The notes beneath the pieces are model-generated. The model saw only the letters and a program-made list of their open reading frames with translations. It did no database searches and was not told the origin of the DNA. A stretch of DNA of 52,271 nt from Acidimicrobiia bacterium. Lineage in GTDB: Bacteria > Actinomycetota > Acidimicrobiia > Acidimicrobiales > MedAcidi-G1. Below, in pieces: positions 3,648 through 31,830 of this stretch; the first letter of the stretch is position 1; every line of letters begins with the position of its first letter. A program made the position numbers and the translations under genes. Location: positions 1-52,271 of the forward strand of contig DUCC01000036.1 in the NCBI GenBank assembly GCA_012959995.1, written 5' to 3'.

Positions 3648-5858
3648 ATGAACTTGCGGAGGCTCAGTGTTGTTTTGGCGTGGACACTGCTGGCTGCCAG
3701 TTGCGGCGGCGGCACCGACCAGGGCCCCCTTGAGGCCGCCACTTCGGTAGTTGCCCCAGAAACAGCCAGCGACTCTTTAGGTTTCTCTGTTGACGACAAC
3801 GGATGGACTTTTCAAAACTATGCCGCCGACGGTGACGCCCAGTTCACGGTGATTGATGCCATTGCCCTTTTCGGTGACGCTGCCGTCTGTGTAGAAACCA
3901 CCGGCGACTGTACCCCCACCCCCGCCGCCGCCGAATGGATCGCCATGGTGGCTGCCTCAACCGCCGGCGGGGTATGCGAAGGCATGACCGTCACCAGCGC
4001 CGACCGTTTCCTAGTGGGTGCCGACCCAATTACCGGCGACTTGGCCTTAACTAGCGACGTACAGCGGCGACTGGCTCGGCTTTTCGCCACCCAATTCTTA
4101 GACGACGTTATTGAAGCCACCGAAGCGTGGCGCAACCAATCGATCGCCGCCATCGTGGCCGAACTACAAACTGCACTAGCCGACCCCGACCACGAGCAAT
4201 ACACCCTAGGTATTTACTCCGAGGTCGGCGGACACAGCGTGTTGCCCTACGCCGTAGACCTCAACGAACAAGGCAAAGGGGTCATCCATATTTACGACCC
4301 CAACTGGCCGGGACGCCCGCGCTACATAGAGATAGATACCGCCACCAACCAGTGGCGTTTTTCTTACTTCTCCTCCGACCAAGCCGATGACGCCGATGCA
4401 TGGACGGGCGGCAACGGTTCCATGGACCTCACCCCGCTTTCGGTACGTGAAGCACCATTCCCAGAACCCTTTAGTGGCGCCGGCACCGGAACCGACGGCC
4501 ATCTCCTCGCTATTTCCAGCGACGACCGTAACTGGACCCTCACCACCGGCGATGGCCAAACGATCACCGGAGCCACCGCCATGCCAGGCCAAAGCGGTGT
4601 AGTAGCGGTAACCCGAGGCGCAGCAAGCCTCAACGAAGTCGCCGGCCAAGACCTTGTGCTCACCCGGTGGGATGCTCAAGCAGAATTGCACGTAGAGGCC
4701 GGCGAAGTAAGCGTCTTGGTCATCACCCCCACCGGGGCCAGCACGGTAACCCTTGAAACCGGAAGCGCCGTTACTTTCGGATTCTCATCCGTTGAAGACT
4801 TTGACGAATTAGCAGTTGACCTCCAAGTAGCGCAAGGAACAAAAGCCACCGTACGCATGGCTTCGACCACCGAACGAGTCACTTTTGAAGCACCAGAGCA
4901 ATCCAACACAAAAATCGTGCTTAAAGAAACCAGCACCGCAGTAAAAGTAGTAGATCAAAACGGTCAAACAACCACCGAGGTCGAGGTAGAACGCTCCGAC
5001 CAACGCACCGACCTCGTAATAGACGCCACCGGACAGGTCACATACTTCGCTCCCGAAAAAACCCCCGAACAAGAACGCTCAGTTGCCGTAGAAGAAATAG
5101 GCAACCTCATACAACGAGCACCGCTCCCGCTTGTTGATCAATCTTTAGCGCCGACCTCCAGCCTTGCGGAAGATACAGAAGGGCCCTCAACGCTAAGCCC
5201 CGACGGGACATGGCGAGAGTTGCTGCTGGTTCCTCCAGAAGGCCCCTTCGGCACTGAAGACCCAGAAGAAACCTGGTTCGACGACCAAGGGTGCGAATGG
5301 GCCCGTTGGCAAGACGGCTCACAAGGAATACATTGCGAAGACGGGCCAACTCGCTTTTGGGATCCCAACGGAGAAGAACTTGAACCCGTTGATTTTGACC
5401 AAAAATTCATCGAAGAGCCCCCACCTTTCGATGACGGCCGACCCGCTTCAATAAATGACCTACCGCCCCCAGACCGAATGGAACTCAGTACCAACCCGGG
5501 CTGCATGGCCGCTTTTTGGGACACCGGCGCTTCTGGCGAAGCATGCATGGATGGCTCCGGCTCGTACACCGACGTAAACGGGCAAACCTTTCATTACGAA
5601 CCTGGGTCAATAGACATGCCGGACTCCGGCGGTTTCCCCGACACCATGCCTGACCTACCCGAAATACCCGGTCGTGAAGGCACCGGTTACGACGACTTCC
5701 CCGCCTGCCCTACTGGCGCTATTTGCATTGAAGAGCCGCTGGGACCCGACGACTTCCCCGACATGCCCAACCCCGGTGACCGGATCTACGATGAAGCCCC
5801 GCCTTGCCCAACCGGTGCCATTTGCACCGACGAACCACCAATATTTACCCGACCATAG
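3648..5858 (+). CDS. Lipoprotein with papain/C39-like cysteine-peptidase core and acidic Pro-rich tail
   Basis: A 736-aa exported lipoprotein. The signal peptide is residues 1-18 with lipobox LAASC (Cys19). Residues 60-245 hold a cysteine-peptidase-like arrangement: GGVCEGMTVTS (Cys110), GGHSVLPYAV (His196) and IYDPNWPG (Asp217/Asn219). These match the Cys-His-Asp/Asn pattern of papain/C39-like domains. Residues 290-480 are beta-rich and may bind a ligand. The C-terminal 250 residues are rich in Asp, Glu and Pro with several cysteines, and carry two near-identical C-P-T-G-A-I-C segments. The domain call rests on motifs seen by eye. Proteolysis, transglutamination or a dead enzyme are all possible, and the tail may be a surface stalk. 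Confidence 0.7.
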   Translation: MNLRRLSVVLAWTLLAASCGGGTDQGPLEAATSVVAPETASDSLGFSVDDNGWTFQNYAADGDAQFTVIDAIALFGDAAVCVETTGDCTPTPAAAEWIAMVAASTAGGVCEGMTVTSADRFLVGADPITGDLALTSDVQRRLARLFATQFLDDVIEATEAWRNQSIAAIVAELQTALADPDHEQYTLGIYSEVGGHSVLPYAVDLNEQGKGVIHIYDPNWPGRPRYIEIDTATNQWRFSYFSSDQADDADAWTGGNGSMDLTPLSVREAPFPEPFSGAGTGTDGHLLAISSDDRNWTLTTGDGQTITGATAMPGQSGVVAVTRGAASLNEVAGQDLVLTRWDAQAELHVEAGEVSVLVITPTGASTVTLETGSAVTFGFSSVEDFDELAVDLQVAQGTKATVRMASTTERVTFEAPEQSNTKIVLKETSTAVKVVDQNGQTTTEVEVERSDQRTDLVIDATGQVTYFAPEKTPEQERSVAVEEIGNLIQRAPLPLVDQSLAPTSSLAEDTEGPSTLSPDGTWRELLLVPPEGPFGTEDPEETWFDDQGCEWARWQDGSQGIHCEDGPTRFWDPNGEELEPVDFDQKFIEEPPPFDDGRPASINDLPPPDRMELSTNPGCMAAFWDTGASGEACMDGSGSYTDVNGQTFHYEPGSIDMPDSGGFPDTMPDLPEIPGREGTGYDDFPACPTGAICIEEPLGPDDFPDMPNPGDRIYDEAPPCPTGAICTDEPPIFTRP

Positions 5859-27379: not shown

Positions 27380-28471
27380 ATGACCACCGCTAACCGTGTC
27401 CACAACTTCTGCGCCGGACCCTGCACTTTGCCGGTTTCTGTGTTGGAAGAAGTCCGTGACGAAATGTTGAACTTTGGCGGCACTGGCATGTCGATCATCG
27501 AAAGCAGCCACCGGGCCCCTGCTTATGACGCTGTACACATGGAAGCACTGGCTGATTTTCGCTCTCTGGCTCAGGTGCCAGAAGATTTCAGTATTTTGTT
27601 TCTGCAAGGCGGCGCTTCGCTGCAATTTGCTCAAGTGCCGTTGAACCTTTTAGCACCTCAAGAAAGTGCCGCCTACTTGACCACCGGCACCTGGGGTAAA
27701 AAAGCTTTCGCCGACGCTCAATTAGTAAGCGAGGCCTACCAAGCATGGACGGGGGCCGACGAAGGATTCGCCCGCATGCCCTCTATCGCCGACTTTGACC
27801 TGCGCCCCGACACTCGCTACCTGCACATCACCACCAACGAAACAATCGGCGGCATTCGTTTTCCCGAATACCCCACCGTGGATCTGCCTTTAGTGGCCGA
27901 CATGAGTTCCGACTTCTTGAGCCGCCCTATTGACTGGGACCGTTTTGACCTGGTTTACGGCGGCGCCCAGAAAAACCTTGGCCCGGCCGGTTTGGCCATA
28001 GTGGTAGTACGTAAAGAACTTTTGGGGCGCAGCGAACGCACTCTTAACTCTTACATGGATTACCGCACCCACGACAAAGCCGATTCCATGGCCAACACGC
28101 CGCCCATGTTTGCTATCTACGTGATGGGCAAAGTGTTGAAATGGATGCAAGCAGCAGGCGGACTCGAAGAGTTCGAGCGGCGATCGGCCGCTCGAGCCGA
28201 TTTGCTTTACGGCACCATTGAACAAAGCGAAGGCTGGTACCGGTCACCGGTTGATGCCGCCAGTCGGTCTCATATGAACATTGTCTTTCGTTTGCCTAGC
28301 GAAGACTTAGAAAAACAGTTTGTGGCCGAAGCAGCAGCTTCTGGCATGGTGAACCTGAAAGGCCACCGCGACGTAGGCGGCATTCGGGCCAGCGTCTACA
28401 ACGCTTTGGACCAACAAAGCGTTGTTGCCTTAACCGATTTTATGACTGAGTTTCAAGCCACCAACGCTTAG
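27380..28471 (+). CDS. serC: Phosphoserine aminotransferase
   Basis: A 363-aa class V aminotransferase converting 3-phosphohydroxypyruvate and glutamate to phosphoserine (serine and PLP synthesis). It shows NFCAGPCTLPVSVLEEV, MSIIESSHR, FLQGGASLQFAQVPLNLL, TNETIGGIRFPE and the PLP lysine in YGGAQKNLGPAG (Lys198), with DYRTHDKADSMANTPPMFAIY near the phosphate site. AAGGGAG lies 8 nt before the ATG. It ends in a 4-nt convergent overlap with the next gene. Confidence 0.95.
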   Translation: MTTANRVHNFCAGPCTLPVSVLEEVRDEMLNFGGTGMSIIESSHRAPAYDAVHMEALADFRSLAQVPEDFSILFLQGGASLQFAQVPLNLLAPQESAAYLTTGTWGKKAFADAQLVSEAYQAWTGADEGFARMPSIADFDLRPDTRYLHITTNETIGGIRFPEYPTVDLPLVADMSSDFLSRPIDWDRFDLVYGGAQKNLGPAGLAIVVVRKELLGRSERTLNSYMDYRTHDKADSMANTPPMFAIYVMGKVLKWMQAAGGLEEFERRSAARADLLYGTIEQSEGWYRSPVDAASRSHMNIVFRLPSEDLEKQFVAEAAASGMVNLKGHRDVGGIRASVYNALDQQSVVALTDFMTEFQATNA

Positions 28472-28905
28472 CCCAAAGCGGCCATCATGCGGTCGCGCAC
28501 TACCTCAATGGCTTTAAATGGTCGAATCATCACCTTGAATTCGGTAATGAGACTTTGGTCATCGCAGGTGATCATGTCGATTCCGTTGACTTGCAGTTCA
28601 CCCATTTGAGTTTCAAATTCCAAAACGGCATGATGCCCGTCAAGTATTTTTTTGGTGTAATGAAAACTCGTTTTGGCGACTGAGCTTTCTTCAGATGCCT
28701 CAGGCTGCGCACCGCCCGGAAAAACCATGGCCGCCGCCTCGAGGTACATCATGGTTAGTACTCGGCCTTCTTGGGGCTTAAATAAGACTGGCGACCAAAA
28801 TACTACATCAGGGTGCAAGAGGTCTTCTAGCGACGTTGCCCCTTTTTCTGAAAGGTACTGATGCCAATCGGTCACCGTTTTGTGGATGGGGTCAGTGTCT
28901 GCCAT
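28468..28905 (-). CDS. NTF2-like (SnoaL-type) small protein
   Basis: A 145-aa single-domain protein with NTF2-fold features: an N-terminal helix VTDWHQYLSEKG, LEDLLHPDVVFWSPVLF, an amphipathic helix, then HYTKKILDGHHAVLEFETQM and NGIDMITCDDQSLITEFKVMIRP. The family includes isomerases, hydrolases and non-catalytic domains, so no function can be assigned. It is divergent from the thioredoxin-like selenoprotein gene, with a 108-bp shared upstream region. Confidence 0.75.
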   Translation of the reverse strand: MADTDPIHKTVTDWHQYLSEKGATSLEDLLHPDVVFWSPVLFKPQEGRVLTMMYLEAAAMVFPGGAQPEASEESSVAKTSFHYTKKILDGHHAVLEFETQMGELQVNGIDMITCDDQSLITEFKVMIRPFKAIEVVRDRMMAALG

Positions 28906-29013
28906 GAGGTAAGTCTGGCCTATTGCTCCTTTTGATTTCTTATCGGGTCAGTCAGATTTTTTATTTCTTGCCCCATGCGTTACCTTGGCTTTTAGCCGTA
29001 GCAAAGGATCACC

Positions 29014-30054
29014 ATGCACGAATCTCAAGAAACCACCATTTTGGCCGACTGGACAAGCGCTGTTGAAGTCCGTTGGCAAGACCAAAAGCCCTGGGTTAAG
29101 CCCAGCGTTCTTGATGAAATATTAGGTTGGAAACTCAAACCCGAAGGCCTCTGCCAAGGTTCTTCTTGTATCCCCGTGCCAGATGCAGCATCTTTGATGA
29201 CCGACGATGGCCTCGATCTGCTCGCCGTTGCAGAAAAACTAAACCGACCTGCCTTGGTCGACGCCGAGAACCAGTGGGTCGTTATTGGCTCCCCCGCTGA
29301 AGAACGAGAAAATGCTTTAGTGGGTAGGCAGGTTCCTAACGTGACCTTGCGAGACCTTGACGGCGCTTCCCGAGAGTTAACCGAATGGTCGGGCACCCGG
29401 CGTCTTTTGGTGGCTTTTTCCAGTTGGTGAGGATGCGCATTTGACCTGCCCGGGTGGCAGGAACTTCACCAAACCTTGGCGGGGAACAATTTTACGGTCA
29501 TCGCCGTTGCCCTCGATGAGAACATCGAAGCGGTCATTCCTTTAGCAGAAGGGATCACTTATCCGGTGTTAGTTGACACGGAACATCAGTTAGCTGAGCT
29601 CTATGCCATTACTAATGTGCCCACTGTTTTGTGGATAGATGAACACGATCAGATCGTTCGACCCAACGCCACCGAATTTGGTTGCGACATGTTTATTGAT
29701 TTCACTGGCATTTCCTGCGCTGATCACATGGAACAAGTAAGTGACTGGATTCTCAACGGGAACTTGCCTGCTGACGCCAGCCACCAAGTAACCGAGCTAA
29801 GCGAAAACGAAGTACTGGCCCATCTTCATTTTCGCCTCGCCGTCCACGCCCAAAGAAACCAGCAAGACGAAACGGCGCAAAAATACTTTGCCCAAGCCGC
29901 CGAGCTCGCTCCATTTGATTTCACCATTGTCCGCGCTGCTATGCCCCTTACCGGGGTTGACCCTTTCGGGCCTGCTTTTTTTGAGCTTTACCAGCGCTTT
30001 GCCGACGCCGGGCTCCCCACCCACGGCATTGAACGCCTCAAACAAGAAAACTAA
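29014..30054 (+). CDS. Thioredoxin-like selenoprotein with U-G-C motif (TGA = selenocysteine 139)
   Basis: One frame of 346 residues broken only by TGA at 29428-29430. The redox region reads LLVAFSSW-U-GCAFDLPGWQEL, the position of the first active-site Cys of TlpA/ResA-like proteins (normally SWC). Cys141 gives a U-x-C motif. Downstream are strand VIAVALDEN, cis-Pro203 in NVPTVLWID and a helical TPR-like C terminus. Residues 1-100 are a separate N-terminal region with Cys47 and Cys52. A perfect 6-bp stem-loop starts 14 nt after the TGA, as expected of a bacterial SECIS. AAAGGA precedes the ATG. Without recoding one would call two genes of 138 and 192 aa. It probably reduces a peroxide or disulfide in the cytosol, as no signal peptide is seen. 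Confidence 0.87.
29445..29461 (+). promoter_or_regulatory. Bacterial SECIS-like stem-loop for Sec139
   Basis: CCTGCC-CGGGT-GGCAGG forms a perfect 6-bp GC-rich stem with a 5-nt loop that begins 20 nt after the TGA. The second loop base is G. Distance and loop composition meet the bacterial SECIS criteria, and the loop starts with CG, like that of the other selenoprotein gene here. Confidence 0.82.
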
Positions 30055-30616
30055 ATTTCAAGCACGGTGATCGTGCCGGCGGCCCCATCAACTTCGATAA
30101 GCGCTCCCTCGGGGATGCGTTTGGTGGCATCGGTGGCGCTCACCACACAGGGCAAACCGAGTTCTCGAGAAACAATAATGGCGTGACTCATTTGCCCGCC
30201 TACATCTACCACCACCGCTTCTACGGGTACAAAAAGCGGGGTCCGCGGGGGTCGGTAAGCGGGGCAAGCCCTTCGGAGCCCAAAAAAGTAGCATCGGTTT
30301 CTTCCACCGTTACCCCTGGCGTGCGCACCGCCAGAACACGCGACACCGACAAGTTCATGTAGTTGTAGCCGCCGAATACCCCCATATGCACGTCAGCGTT
30401 TTCTCGGTTCTCTCGTTTACTCAGAACCCCGGTTTCTTCTAACGCCTCTACTGCCGGGTCGTTGCTTATGAGTGTTGATATTGAAGCGCTAAAGGGGAAC
30501 ACCACTTCGGGATAAACCTCCCCCACATTGCCTCGGGTATACACCGGAAACCGTTTACTGGGGCCCCATGCACATAAAGCCCCAAACCGTAGTCCACCAA
30601 GGTCAGCGACGTTCCT
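30051..30616 (-). pseudogene. Decayed PEP-utilising enzyme (PEP synthase/PPDK-like) remnant
   Basis: Two frames carry pieces of one protein. The 5' piece reads FPVYTRGNVGEVYPEVVFPF then NYMNLSVSRVLAVRTPGVT and stops at 30221. The 3' piece, in another frame, reads VVVDVGGQMSHAIIVSRELGLPCVVS and ends at 30051; this is the swivelling phosphohistidine domain (G-G-x2-S-H). Intact relatives are about 550 aa, so a frameshift near 30221-30240 and a large internal deletion have occurred. No good start codon remains upstream of a GTG at 30544. It is not expected to be active. The gap up to 30693 holds nothing else. Confidence 0.75.
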
Positions 30617-30693
30617 TTACTATTTTTCAAGTTTAAGAACTTTCACTAATTGACTGAGGCTTTTTTGTTGACCCTTGACGGGAGAAACCATGC

Positions 30694-31830
30694 CTACTCA
30701 ATAGCGGCCAGCAGGTCGGCCACTAAACCGTTGGGCACCCAGTAGTCCTCGAGTGACCTGTAGGGGATGGTGATAGATACCGTGTTTGACCCCGACCCGC
30801 CGACTGAGTAGGGGGCGAAGGAAAGCACCAAGCCGCCTTGGGTGAGGTTGTAGAGGGTGAAGTTGATGGTGTCTGGCGAGGCACCGGTGAAGCGACGTTC
30901 GTCAACCCAAGGCTCGGACTCAAGCCGGGTGATGGCTTCGGCCGATACTGCTTCCACCCAGTCGGTTTCGGGGTCAAACAGGTCAACGATGCTTAGCGGT
31001 TCGCCGGTGAACAGGTCGAAGGTTTCGGTACGGATGGTTGCTGATTCTCCTGCTGCTCCGGACACCAACTGACTGACCGTGTTGCGCATGCTGAGCAATT
31101 CGTCGTTGGAAAGCAGAATTTCGTATTCGTGTTCAAGCCAGACGCATCGGCCGGTTACTCCTTCTCGGCAGGCGTAACCGTTGTCTTCGACGGAACTAAT
31201 GGCGTCGTCAAGAAACTCGTTCACTGCCCCTTGGGTGAGGCCCAGCAGTCGCCCATTTACCTGGGGGGCTTCTCGGGGGCCTTCTATGCGGGGCCAGGTG
31301 ATAGCGATTTCGATTTTTCCTGTGGTGCCAGTGGGCTCTCCGGTGGGCCCATAAGCGTCCACCCCAGCGCTGATAACGCAGTTGACTTCTTCCATGGTGA
31401 TAGCGGGGCCCACTTGGCCTTCTACTTCGTCTTCTCTTTCTCGGGGAATAAGCAGCATTTGTCCAACCCGGAGTTTGTTGGGGTCGTTTAATGCGTTGGC
31501 CCGCATGAACGCATCAACGGTGCTGTCGAAACGTTCAGCGATTTTCCCAAGCGAATCGCCGGCTTCTACCATGACTGTTTCAGGGCCTTCGTCGGGGAGC
31601 ACTATTTCGGGCGGACGAGCACTCGCTACACAAGCTTCTGCTGCTTCTCGGGCTTCGGGGAGTTCTATTTTTTCCCACCCGGGGACTTCCAGCGGCGGCA
31701 CAGTAGGCGATGCTTGGGAGTCGGCGAAGAGGTCCCCCACCGTGGTGGTCGGCGGAGCAGTGGTTTCTTCACCGCCACAGGCAGAAGCCAGCAGGACAAA
31801 AGTCAAAGCAATTATCAGCGTACGTTTCAC
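30694..31830 (-). CDS. Lipoprotein with LysM and RsiV/DUF3298-like domain
   Basis: 378 aa from a GTG. The signal peptide has lipobox LASAC (Cys18). A LysM peptidoglycan-binding domain follows at about 86-132 (VEAGDSLGKIAERFDSTVDAFMRANALN, ending VGQMLLIPRE). The C-terminal 220 residues resemble DUF3298/RsiV: ETFDLFTGEPLSIVDLFDP, then GLVLSFAPYSVGGSGSNTVSITIPYRSL. RsiV-type domains bind lysozyme or act as cell-wall sensors in anti-sigma factors, but no transmembrane anti-sigma part is present here. It diverges from the aldo/keto reductase. Confidence 0.85.
   Translation of the reverse strand: MKRTLIIALTFVLLASACGGEETTAPPTTTVGDLFADSQASPTVPPLEVPGWEKIELPEAREAAEACVASARPPEIVLPDEGPETVMVEAGDSLGKIAERFDSTVDAFMRANALNDPNKLRVGQMLLIPREREDEVEGQVGPAITMEEVNCVISAGVDAYGPTGEPTGTTGKIEIAITWPRIEGPREAPQVNGRLLGLTQGAVNEFLDDAISSVEDNGYACREGVTGRCVWLEHEYEILLSNDELLSMRNTVSQLVSGAAGESATIRTETFDLFTGEPLSIVDLFDPETDWVEAVSAEAITRLESEPWVDERRFTGASPDTINFTLYNLTQGGLVLSFAPYSVGGSGSNTVSITIPYRSLEDYWVPNGLVADLLAAIE

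Follow-up and report, generated by a model that had tools for sequence, protein, structure and literature searches.

A UGC-containing ResA/TlpA-like selenoprotein with an N-terminal CX4C domain in Acidimicrobiia

Introduction

Selenoproteins with a U-G-C motif in a thioredoxin-like domain have been described from environmental DNA. The 2008 GOS survey of ocean metagenomes (Zhang and Gladyshev, PMC2398784) listed a family named 'Prx-like (UGC-containing)' under pfam00578, with 46 selenoproteins from 15 samples and 855 Cys homologs. In the parts of the later literature covered here, a 2022 review keeps the UGC-containing Prx-like family (PMC9312934), and a 2026 review keeps it as 'UGC-containing TlpA disulfide reductase family protein' (PMC13188914). 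The closest curated model is NCBIfam NF041054, WAxxUGC_long ('ResA-like WAxxUGC motif-containing protein'). Its proteins have the same order of parts as the protein reported here: an N-terminal GxC....C motif, a U-G-C thioredoxin domain and a TPR-like tail.

The gene under study lies in a window of 52,271 nucleotides, the whole stretch of DNA that was analysed, from an Acidimicrobiia bacterium (contig DUCC01000036.1). The best overall explanation, which we hold with high confidence, is that it encodes a UGC-containing ResA/TlpA-like selenoprotein, a thiol/selenol oxidoreductase that is probably cytosolic.

Results

One gene with a conserved in-frame UGA

29014-30054, plus strand: selenoprotein gene, 346 codons with UGA139 as Sec and a TAA stop (frame, homologs and model)
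29428-29430, plus strand: in-frame TGA, the selenocysteine codon, U139 of the U-G-C motif (TGA and Cys codons among homologous loci)

Translation of the frame at 29014-30054 (plus strand) gives a single internal stop, the TGA at 29428-29430 (codon 139), in the peptide LLVAFSSW-U-GCAFDLPGW. In the table 11 ORF list the gene appears as two ORFs of 138 aa and 192 aa. A preliminary description of this DNA had proposed that the two apparent genes are one frame with one TGA at this position; translation and homologs confirm it. The stretch is one gene for a selenium-containing redox protein in which UGA139 is read as Sec.

A genome collection scan found 237 relatives, and the best 80 were kept (loci L051-L130). 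Their record titles are mostly Acidimicrobiia, Acidimicrobiales or Actinomycetota, with a few others (L055 Euryarchaeota, L130 Acidobacteria). Among these best 80 of 237, codon 139 is TGA in 69 and TGC or TGT in 11; no other codon occurs. Eight chance pattern matches in locus flanks were left out of this count. In a set of 100 related genomes (own genome included), 68 had some match at E <= 0.001, and all 29 full-length TGA-bearing homologs (L001-L029, L001 being the 29014-30054 gene itself) carry the TGA in WUGC context. One of the 29, L009, has an extra TAA downstream of the TGA. A further homolog of this set, L030, is a Cys form (TGC at codon 139) of the same layout. The two homolog sets overlap: by length and position, L002 and L051 represent one and the same contig, and some genomes occur in both. 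The preliminary description had looked to homologs that carry Cys or Sec in this column and share the domain layout, and these exist in number.

All 81 aligned proteins share C47, C52, U or C at 139, and C141, whereas C224 and C235 vary. None of the 81 ends at residue 138: each continues for 149 to 302 aa beyond residue 139, the shortest being L056, which has a TAA further on. The sister L051 is 95% identical to our gene. Downstream of the UGA, 51 synonymous and 12 non-synonymous codon differences were counted among 207 codons, which points to protein-level selection in that part; upstream, 6 synonymous and 5 non-synonymous codons of 138 differ, too few to judge.

A nonsense mutation or a sequencing error, leaving a pseudogene or two genes, would fit the split into 138-aa and 192-aa ORFs and has a precedent next door, where the neighbouring gene is truly decayed. 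This explanation has virtually no chance of being right: the TGA is shared by 69 of the best 80 loci and by 29 of 29 in the overlapping set (own gene included), the column otherwise holds Cys, and the codon differences downstream of the UGA are mostly synonymous. It is refuted for practical purposes by the UGA conservation. The view of the preliminary description that a simple nonsense mutation is less likely has been borne out by the conserved UGA, by the constraint on the downstream hairpin and by the confident single fold across codon 139 (both below).

More widely, 20 of 396 sampled genomes from the phylum had a relative at E <= 1e-25. Viral contigs, searched for a phage origin, gave 91 pattern matches and no relative, and the PADLOC defence models gave no match.

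Flanking DNA

The decayed gene lies at 30057-30694 (minus strand) and lacks a long frame. Its counterpart in the sister L051 is an intact 585-aa ORF (4038-5795) with, by eye, a PEP-utilising-enzyme-like C-terminus. About 1.17 kb of the L051 ORF is missing from our window, and the alignment jumps at 30259-30267 (9-base overlap). Identity to L051 is 97 to 100% per 100 bases over 28000-29500, with one dip to 92%, and 80 to 93% over 29500-30300. The switch falls inside the selenoprotein gene, after the hairpin, and this uneven divergence suggests recombination between close relatives.

A SECIS-type hairpin under codon-level constraint

29445-29461, plus strand: SECIS-type hairpin, stem 29445-29450 (CCTGCC) and 29456-29461 (GGCAGG), loop CGGGT at 29451-29455

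The perfect 6-bp hairpin with loop CGGGT of the preliminary description is exact as placed, with a UGA-to-loop spacing of 20 nt; the stem starts after a 14-nt gap from the UGA. In bacterial selenoprotein genes the SECIS element is described as a hairpin just 3' of the UGA whose small apical loop holds guanosine (PMC1088965). The hairpin at 29445-29461 fits this description. A longer stem that takes in the UGA folds in our gene and in L002 and is inconsistent in relatives; it is not claimed.

Synonymous entropy was ranked over 85 conserved degenerate codon columns in 70 Sec forms (69 plus our own gene) against the genes' own codon use. The four lowest values of the 85 columns are those of codons 145, 146, 149 and 147, all inside the hairpin. 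At codon 146, CCG is used by none of the 70 Sec forms and by 6 of 11 Cys forms (p 1.4e-6). At codon 147, GGG is used by 47 of 70 Sec forms and by 1 of 11 Cys forms (p 3.8e-4), although in the rest of the Sec-form genes no glycine codon is rarer than GGG (278 of 1,629 unambiguous glycine codons). The two codons go together in the 70 Sec forms: CCC at 146 is followed by GGG in 46 of 46 cases, and CCA by GGT (16), GGC (7) or GGG (1). The loop GG is invariant in all 70.

Across 58 distinct sequences, 99.1% of the stem cells are paired, and in two stem pairs both partners have changed, C-G becoming U-A. The stem covariation score was reached by 0 of 500 shuffles, while the number of both-side-changed pairs (two) was reached by 61 of 500. 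Since the stem overlaps the invariant peptide DLPGWQ, part of the pairing follows from the protein alone; pairing by itself is weak evidence, and the third-base constraint carries the case for the hairpin. Two points temper the codon contrast. Nine of 11 Cys forms keep CTG at codon 145, and the contrast is not free of shared ancestry because most Cys forms cluster in one region of the tree.

Selenium machinery and the Sec/Cys split

The genome carrying the gene is 2.03 Mb in 37 contigs and 96.7% complete. The four Sec machinery genes that the preliminary description had named are all present over cut-off:

C14:61366-61457: tRNA-Sec (selC), anticodon TCA (UCA), 63.4 bits, over cut-off
C14:74171-75316: selA, 395.0 bits, over cut-off
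C14:75337-76407: selB, 272.6 bits, over cut-off
C20:36449-37369: selD, 361.3 bits, over cut-off

The SelD of this genome (G000:C20:36449-37369, L182) is itself a predicted selenoprotein, with an in-frame UGA in HGAGUGCK. Among the selD matches over cut-off, 60 of 78 hold one TGA.

Presence of selA was scored for all 11 Cys-form loci and for 26 of the 69 Sec-form loci. In the 26 Sec-form genomes, selA was over cut-off in 23, partial and below cut-off in two (G111 and G124) and not found in one (G129, 1.6 Mb). None of the 11 Cys-form genomes had selA over cut-off, and only two background matches of 18.7 and 19.7 bits were seen there. The first set agrees. Of the 29 genomes that carry L001-L029, our own among them, 28 have selA and one, G029 (69% complete), does not show it; of four Cys-form genomes, three (G069, G070 and G049) lack it. 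The fourth, G093, is an exception with a Cys form plus selA over cut-off. Its best selB match (locus L142) is well below cut-off (E 3.1e-26). This genome may be in the course of losing its Sec system, or contig gaps may account for the pattern. These comparisons support the view that Sec-using lineages keep the UGA and that the Cys form goes with lack of selA, one exception having been seen. The natural Sec/Cys split, tracking selA with few exceptions, offers a clean comparative case for asking why a lineage bears the cost of selenium.

Could an altered genetic code or near-cognate suppression put another amino acid, such as Trp, at the UGA? The UGA directly follows a Trp codon, and nothing further speaks for such a reading. 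Known codes with UGA as Trp use UGA in many genes and places, unlike the present frame with its exactly one UGA. Cys is the sole alternative at the column (11 of the best 80 of 237), selA, selB, selC and selD are present, and Cys forms accompany lack of selA. We regard reading as another amino acid as very improbable. Decoding of UGA139 as Sec is well supported by the homolog codons, the hairpin, the machinery and the Sec/Cys split, and on this sequence evidence it is almost certain.

Fold and domain layout

29299-29769, plus strand: thioredoxin-like (AhpC-TSA/ResA-like) domain, aa 96-252, with Sec139, Cys141 and P203 (Pfam and structure matches)
29770-30051, plus strand: helical, TPR-like C-terminal tail (model helices 264-281, 285-298 and 320-331; PF07719 sub-threshold)

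The read-through product, with Cys in place of Sec, was modelled by AlphaFold2 with 50 sequences. The full-length model (pLDDT 93.4, pTM 0.91) is one protein across codon 139. Residues 96-252 match ResA/DsbE structures, in line with the TlpA/ResA-like thioredoxin fold proposed earlier with U at the first active-site Cys. The match to 1st9_B has E 5.1e-11 (Foldseek), and VIA-align gives Z 18.0 to 3gl3_B (rmsd 2.0, 138 aligned) and Z 16.8 to 1st9_A; some peroxiredoxin-type chains appear lower among the structure matches. P203, put forward earlier as the cis-Pro, lies in a thioredoxin-type V-P-T and is nearly invariant among homologs. The TPR-like tail of the preliminary description held in part: the region is helical in the model, but the TPR profile PF07719 scores 16.2 bits, below its cut-off of 27. 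The highest 19-residue hydropathy over the first 45 windows of the protein is 0.67. With no hydrophobic N-terminal stretch seen by hydropathy, the protein is probably cytosolic.

An invariant CX4C in the N-terminal domain

29014-29304, plus strand: N-terminal domain, aa 1-97, with an invariant CX4C (C47 and C52), without a clear fold match

The N-terminal region with two cysteines noted earlier proved to be a conserved part of the protein, C47 and C52 being invariant in all 81 aligned proteins. Modelled alone, the 97 residues give pLDDT 86.4. Searches with this domain found no PDB sequence match at E up to 1 and no Pfam match for our protein; among 45 members, only single-member Pfam matches were seen (best E 0.085). 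Foldseek gave nothing at E <= 0.001 (best 1ze3_D, E 0.016). The best VIA-align match is 4b0e_B (Z 6.2, rmsd 3.2, 80 aligned), among usher N-terminal domains. A relationship to these was not adopted because Z 6.2 is below the level at which the tool indicates more than a common arrangement.

The domain is present in 45 of 118 genomes of the order. Of nine extra loci with the domain that were read, eight have the motif and one, L215, has no motif match. CX4C can hold a disulfide or bind a metal, and it is possible, with something short of even chances, that the domain is structural (a fixed disulfide or a metal site) and stands outside catalysis. Against a purely structural role, neither Cys varies in any of the 81 proteins, the pair persists in the Cys forms and in those NF041054-type proteins that were read, and all eight motif-bearing extra loci continue into a thioredoxin domain with U-G-C or C-G-C. 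An invariant CX4C domain without a clear fold match is a concrete target for structural and redox tests.

Discussion

Proposed function

The sequence evidence supports decoding of UGA139 by SelB and tRNA-Sec, guided by the downstream hairpin. We infer the substrate and mechanism of the UGC selenoprotein. Sec139, which occupies the place of the N-terminal active-site Cys of thioredoxins, may act as the nucleophile on a disulfide or a peroxide-derived substrate, and Cys141, two residues further on, may resolve the intermediate through a strained Se-S bond. Both steps are what thioredoxin chemistry would predict for a motif in this place. Work on C-G-C peptides indicates that CxC disulfides are strained. 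The Cys47/Cys52 pair could then take over or supply electrons as the second dithiol of a relay; it is the pair to which one would look first for the next electron step, since it is invariant and always precedes the UGC/CGC domain in the loci read. The helical tail might bind a partner or the substrate.

Reductase chemistry with Sec139/Cys141 is the likelier activity, and we hold it with fair confidence. The main rival on function is that the protein is mainly a peroxiredoxin-like peroxidase, in which Sec139 would reduce peroxides instead of disulfides and Cys141 or C47/C52 would resolve. The best Pfam match is AhpC-TSA (PF00578, 44.2 bits, cut-off 26), followed by Redoxin (35.9 bits, cut-off 26.6), and the kind goes by the name 'Prx-like' in the literature (PMC9312934, PMC2398784, in the parts covered). 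However, by sequence and by fold the nearest solved structures are for the most part reductases of the ResA/DsbE type, and a nearly invariant P203 in a V-P-T is of thioredoxin type. The peroxidatic motif is Pro-x3-Thr/Ser-x2-Cys, and it is not readable at FSSWUGC. We therefore think a peroxidase unlikely, though a serious contender, and prefer the reductase.

For the reductase, a relay through C47/C52 is conceivable and leans to the doubtful side. A bolder and rather unlikely form of this idea would make the CX4C domain at the N-terminus a redox module of a new type, restricted in its action to thioredoxin domains with U-G-C or C-G-C. In such a two-dithiol relay the module would re-reduce the strained Sec-Gly-Cys centre in the same chain, and the active site would need no ordinary thioredoxin reductase step.

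The surroundings of the gene gave no operon clue to the substrate: no neighbour is common to most of the 81 loci (80 plus our own), and no widely conserved operon was seen. The largest neighbour cluster takes in 22 of the 81 loci, with side and strand varying. Close upstream of the start and on the same strand, the most frequent neighbours are seen at 13 and 11 of the 81, neither of them at our locus. Just upstream of our gene, a 145-aa ORF (28468-28905, minus strand) is weakly SnoaL-like (18.7 bits, cut-off 27); it adjoins the selenoprotein gene in 4 of the 81 loci, our own included.

Comparison with known systems

ResA, TlpA and DsbE (CcmG) share with our protein the thioredoxin-like fold over aa 96-252, the place of the active site and the V-P-T with P203. 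They have Cys-x-x-Cys, whereas our protein has U-G-C and its Cys forms C-G-C. Our protein also has extra N- and C-terminal parts, and a signal peptide or membrane anchor was not seen in it (hydropathy only).

With the GOS 'Prx-like (UGC-containing)' family it shares the pfam00578/TlpA-type domain, the U-G-C and the origin in environmental DNA (PMC2398784). In the passages on this family covered here, a CX4C domain is not mentioned. Searches of the literature, largely outside subscription journals, likewise turned up no account of the CX4C-UGC layout.

NF041054 models a sister group of our branch and is the nearest described kind in layout. It was found over cut-off at 16 places in 11 of the 100 related genomes, each with one in-frame TGA, and ten of these proteins that were read all have the GxC....C motif, the UGC domain and the TPR-like tail. 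Both groups, our own branch and NF041054, occur together in some genomes (G063 and G089). Our protein scores 184.8 bits against the curated cut-off of 300. None of 50 own-branch members reaches the cut-off, as judged from the best E of 7.9e-69 (read as about 233 bits). The best stretch spans only aa 28-220 (profile 8-200 of 354), and the tail region differs. The motif in our protein is F-S-S-W-U-G-C and that of NF041054 is W-A-x-x-U-G-C.

A quick tree of 105 rows sets 87 own-side rows apart from 18 that include the ten NF041054 members (98 SH-aLRT, with long-branch warnings). The tree left out L001-L029, L031-L050, L146-L160, L161, L162, L164, L167 and L172 as repeats or other genes, and L137, L142, L143, L144, L176, L179 and L180 were lost to the motif filter. 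The count of three changes between Sec and Cys holds for the tree's set only, because the loci left out or lost include L142-L144, which are those of the Cys-form genomes G093, G049 and G070.

Given the published UGC kind, the scores below cut-off and the tree, we place the gene in a separate branch of a known kind, outside the NF041054 model, and not in a new kind. As far as sequence comparison tells, it is a new branch inside the described UGC-containing selenoproteins. This selenoprotein belongs to many Acidimicrobiia (with sea water, sponges and soils among others in the record titles), and standard gene calling would split it or cut it short. The Acidimicrobiia branch falls outside the curated NCBIfam model for its own kind.
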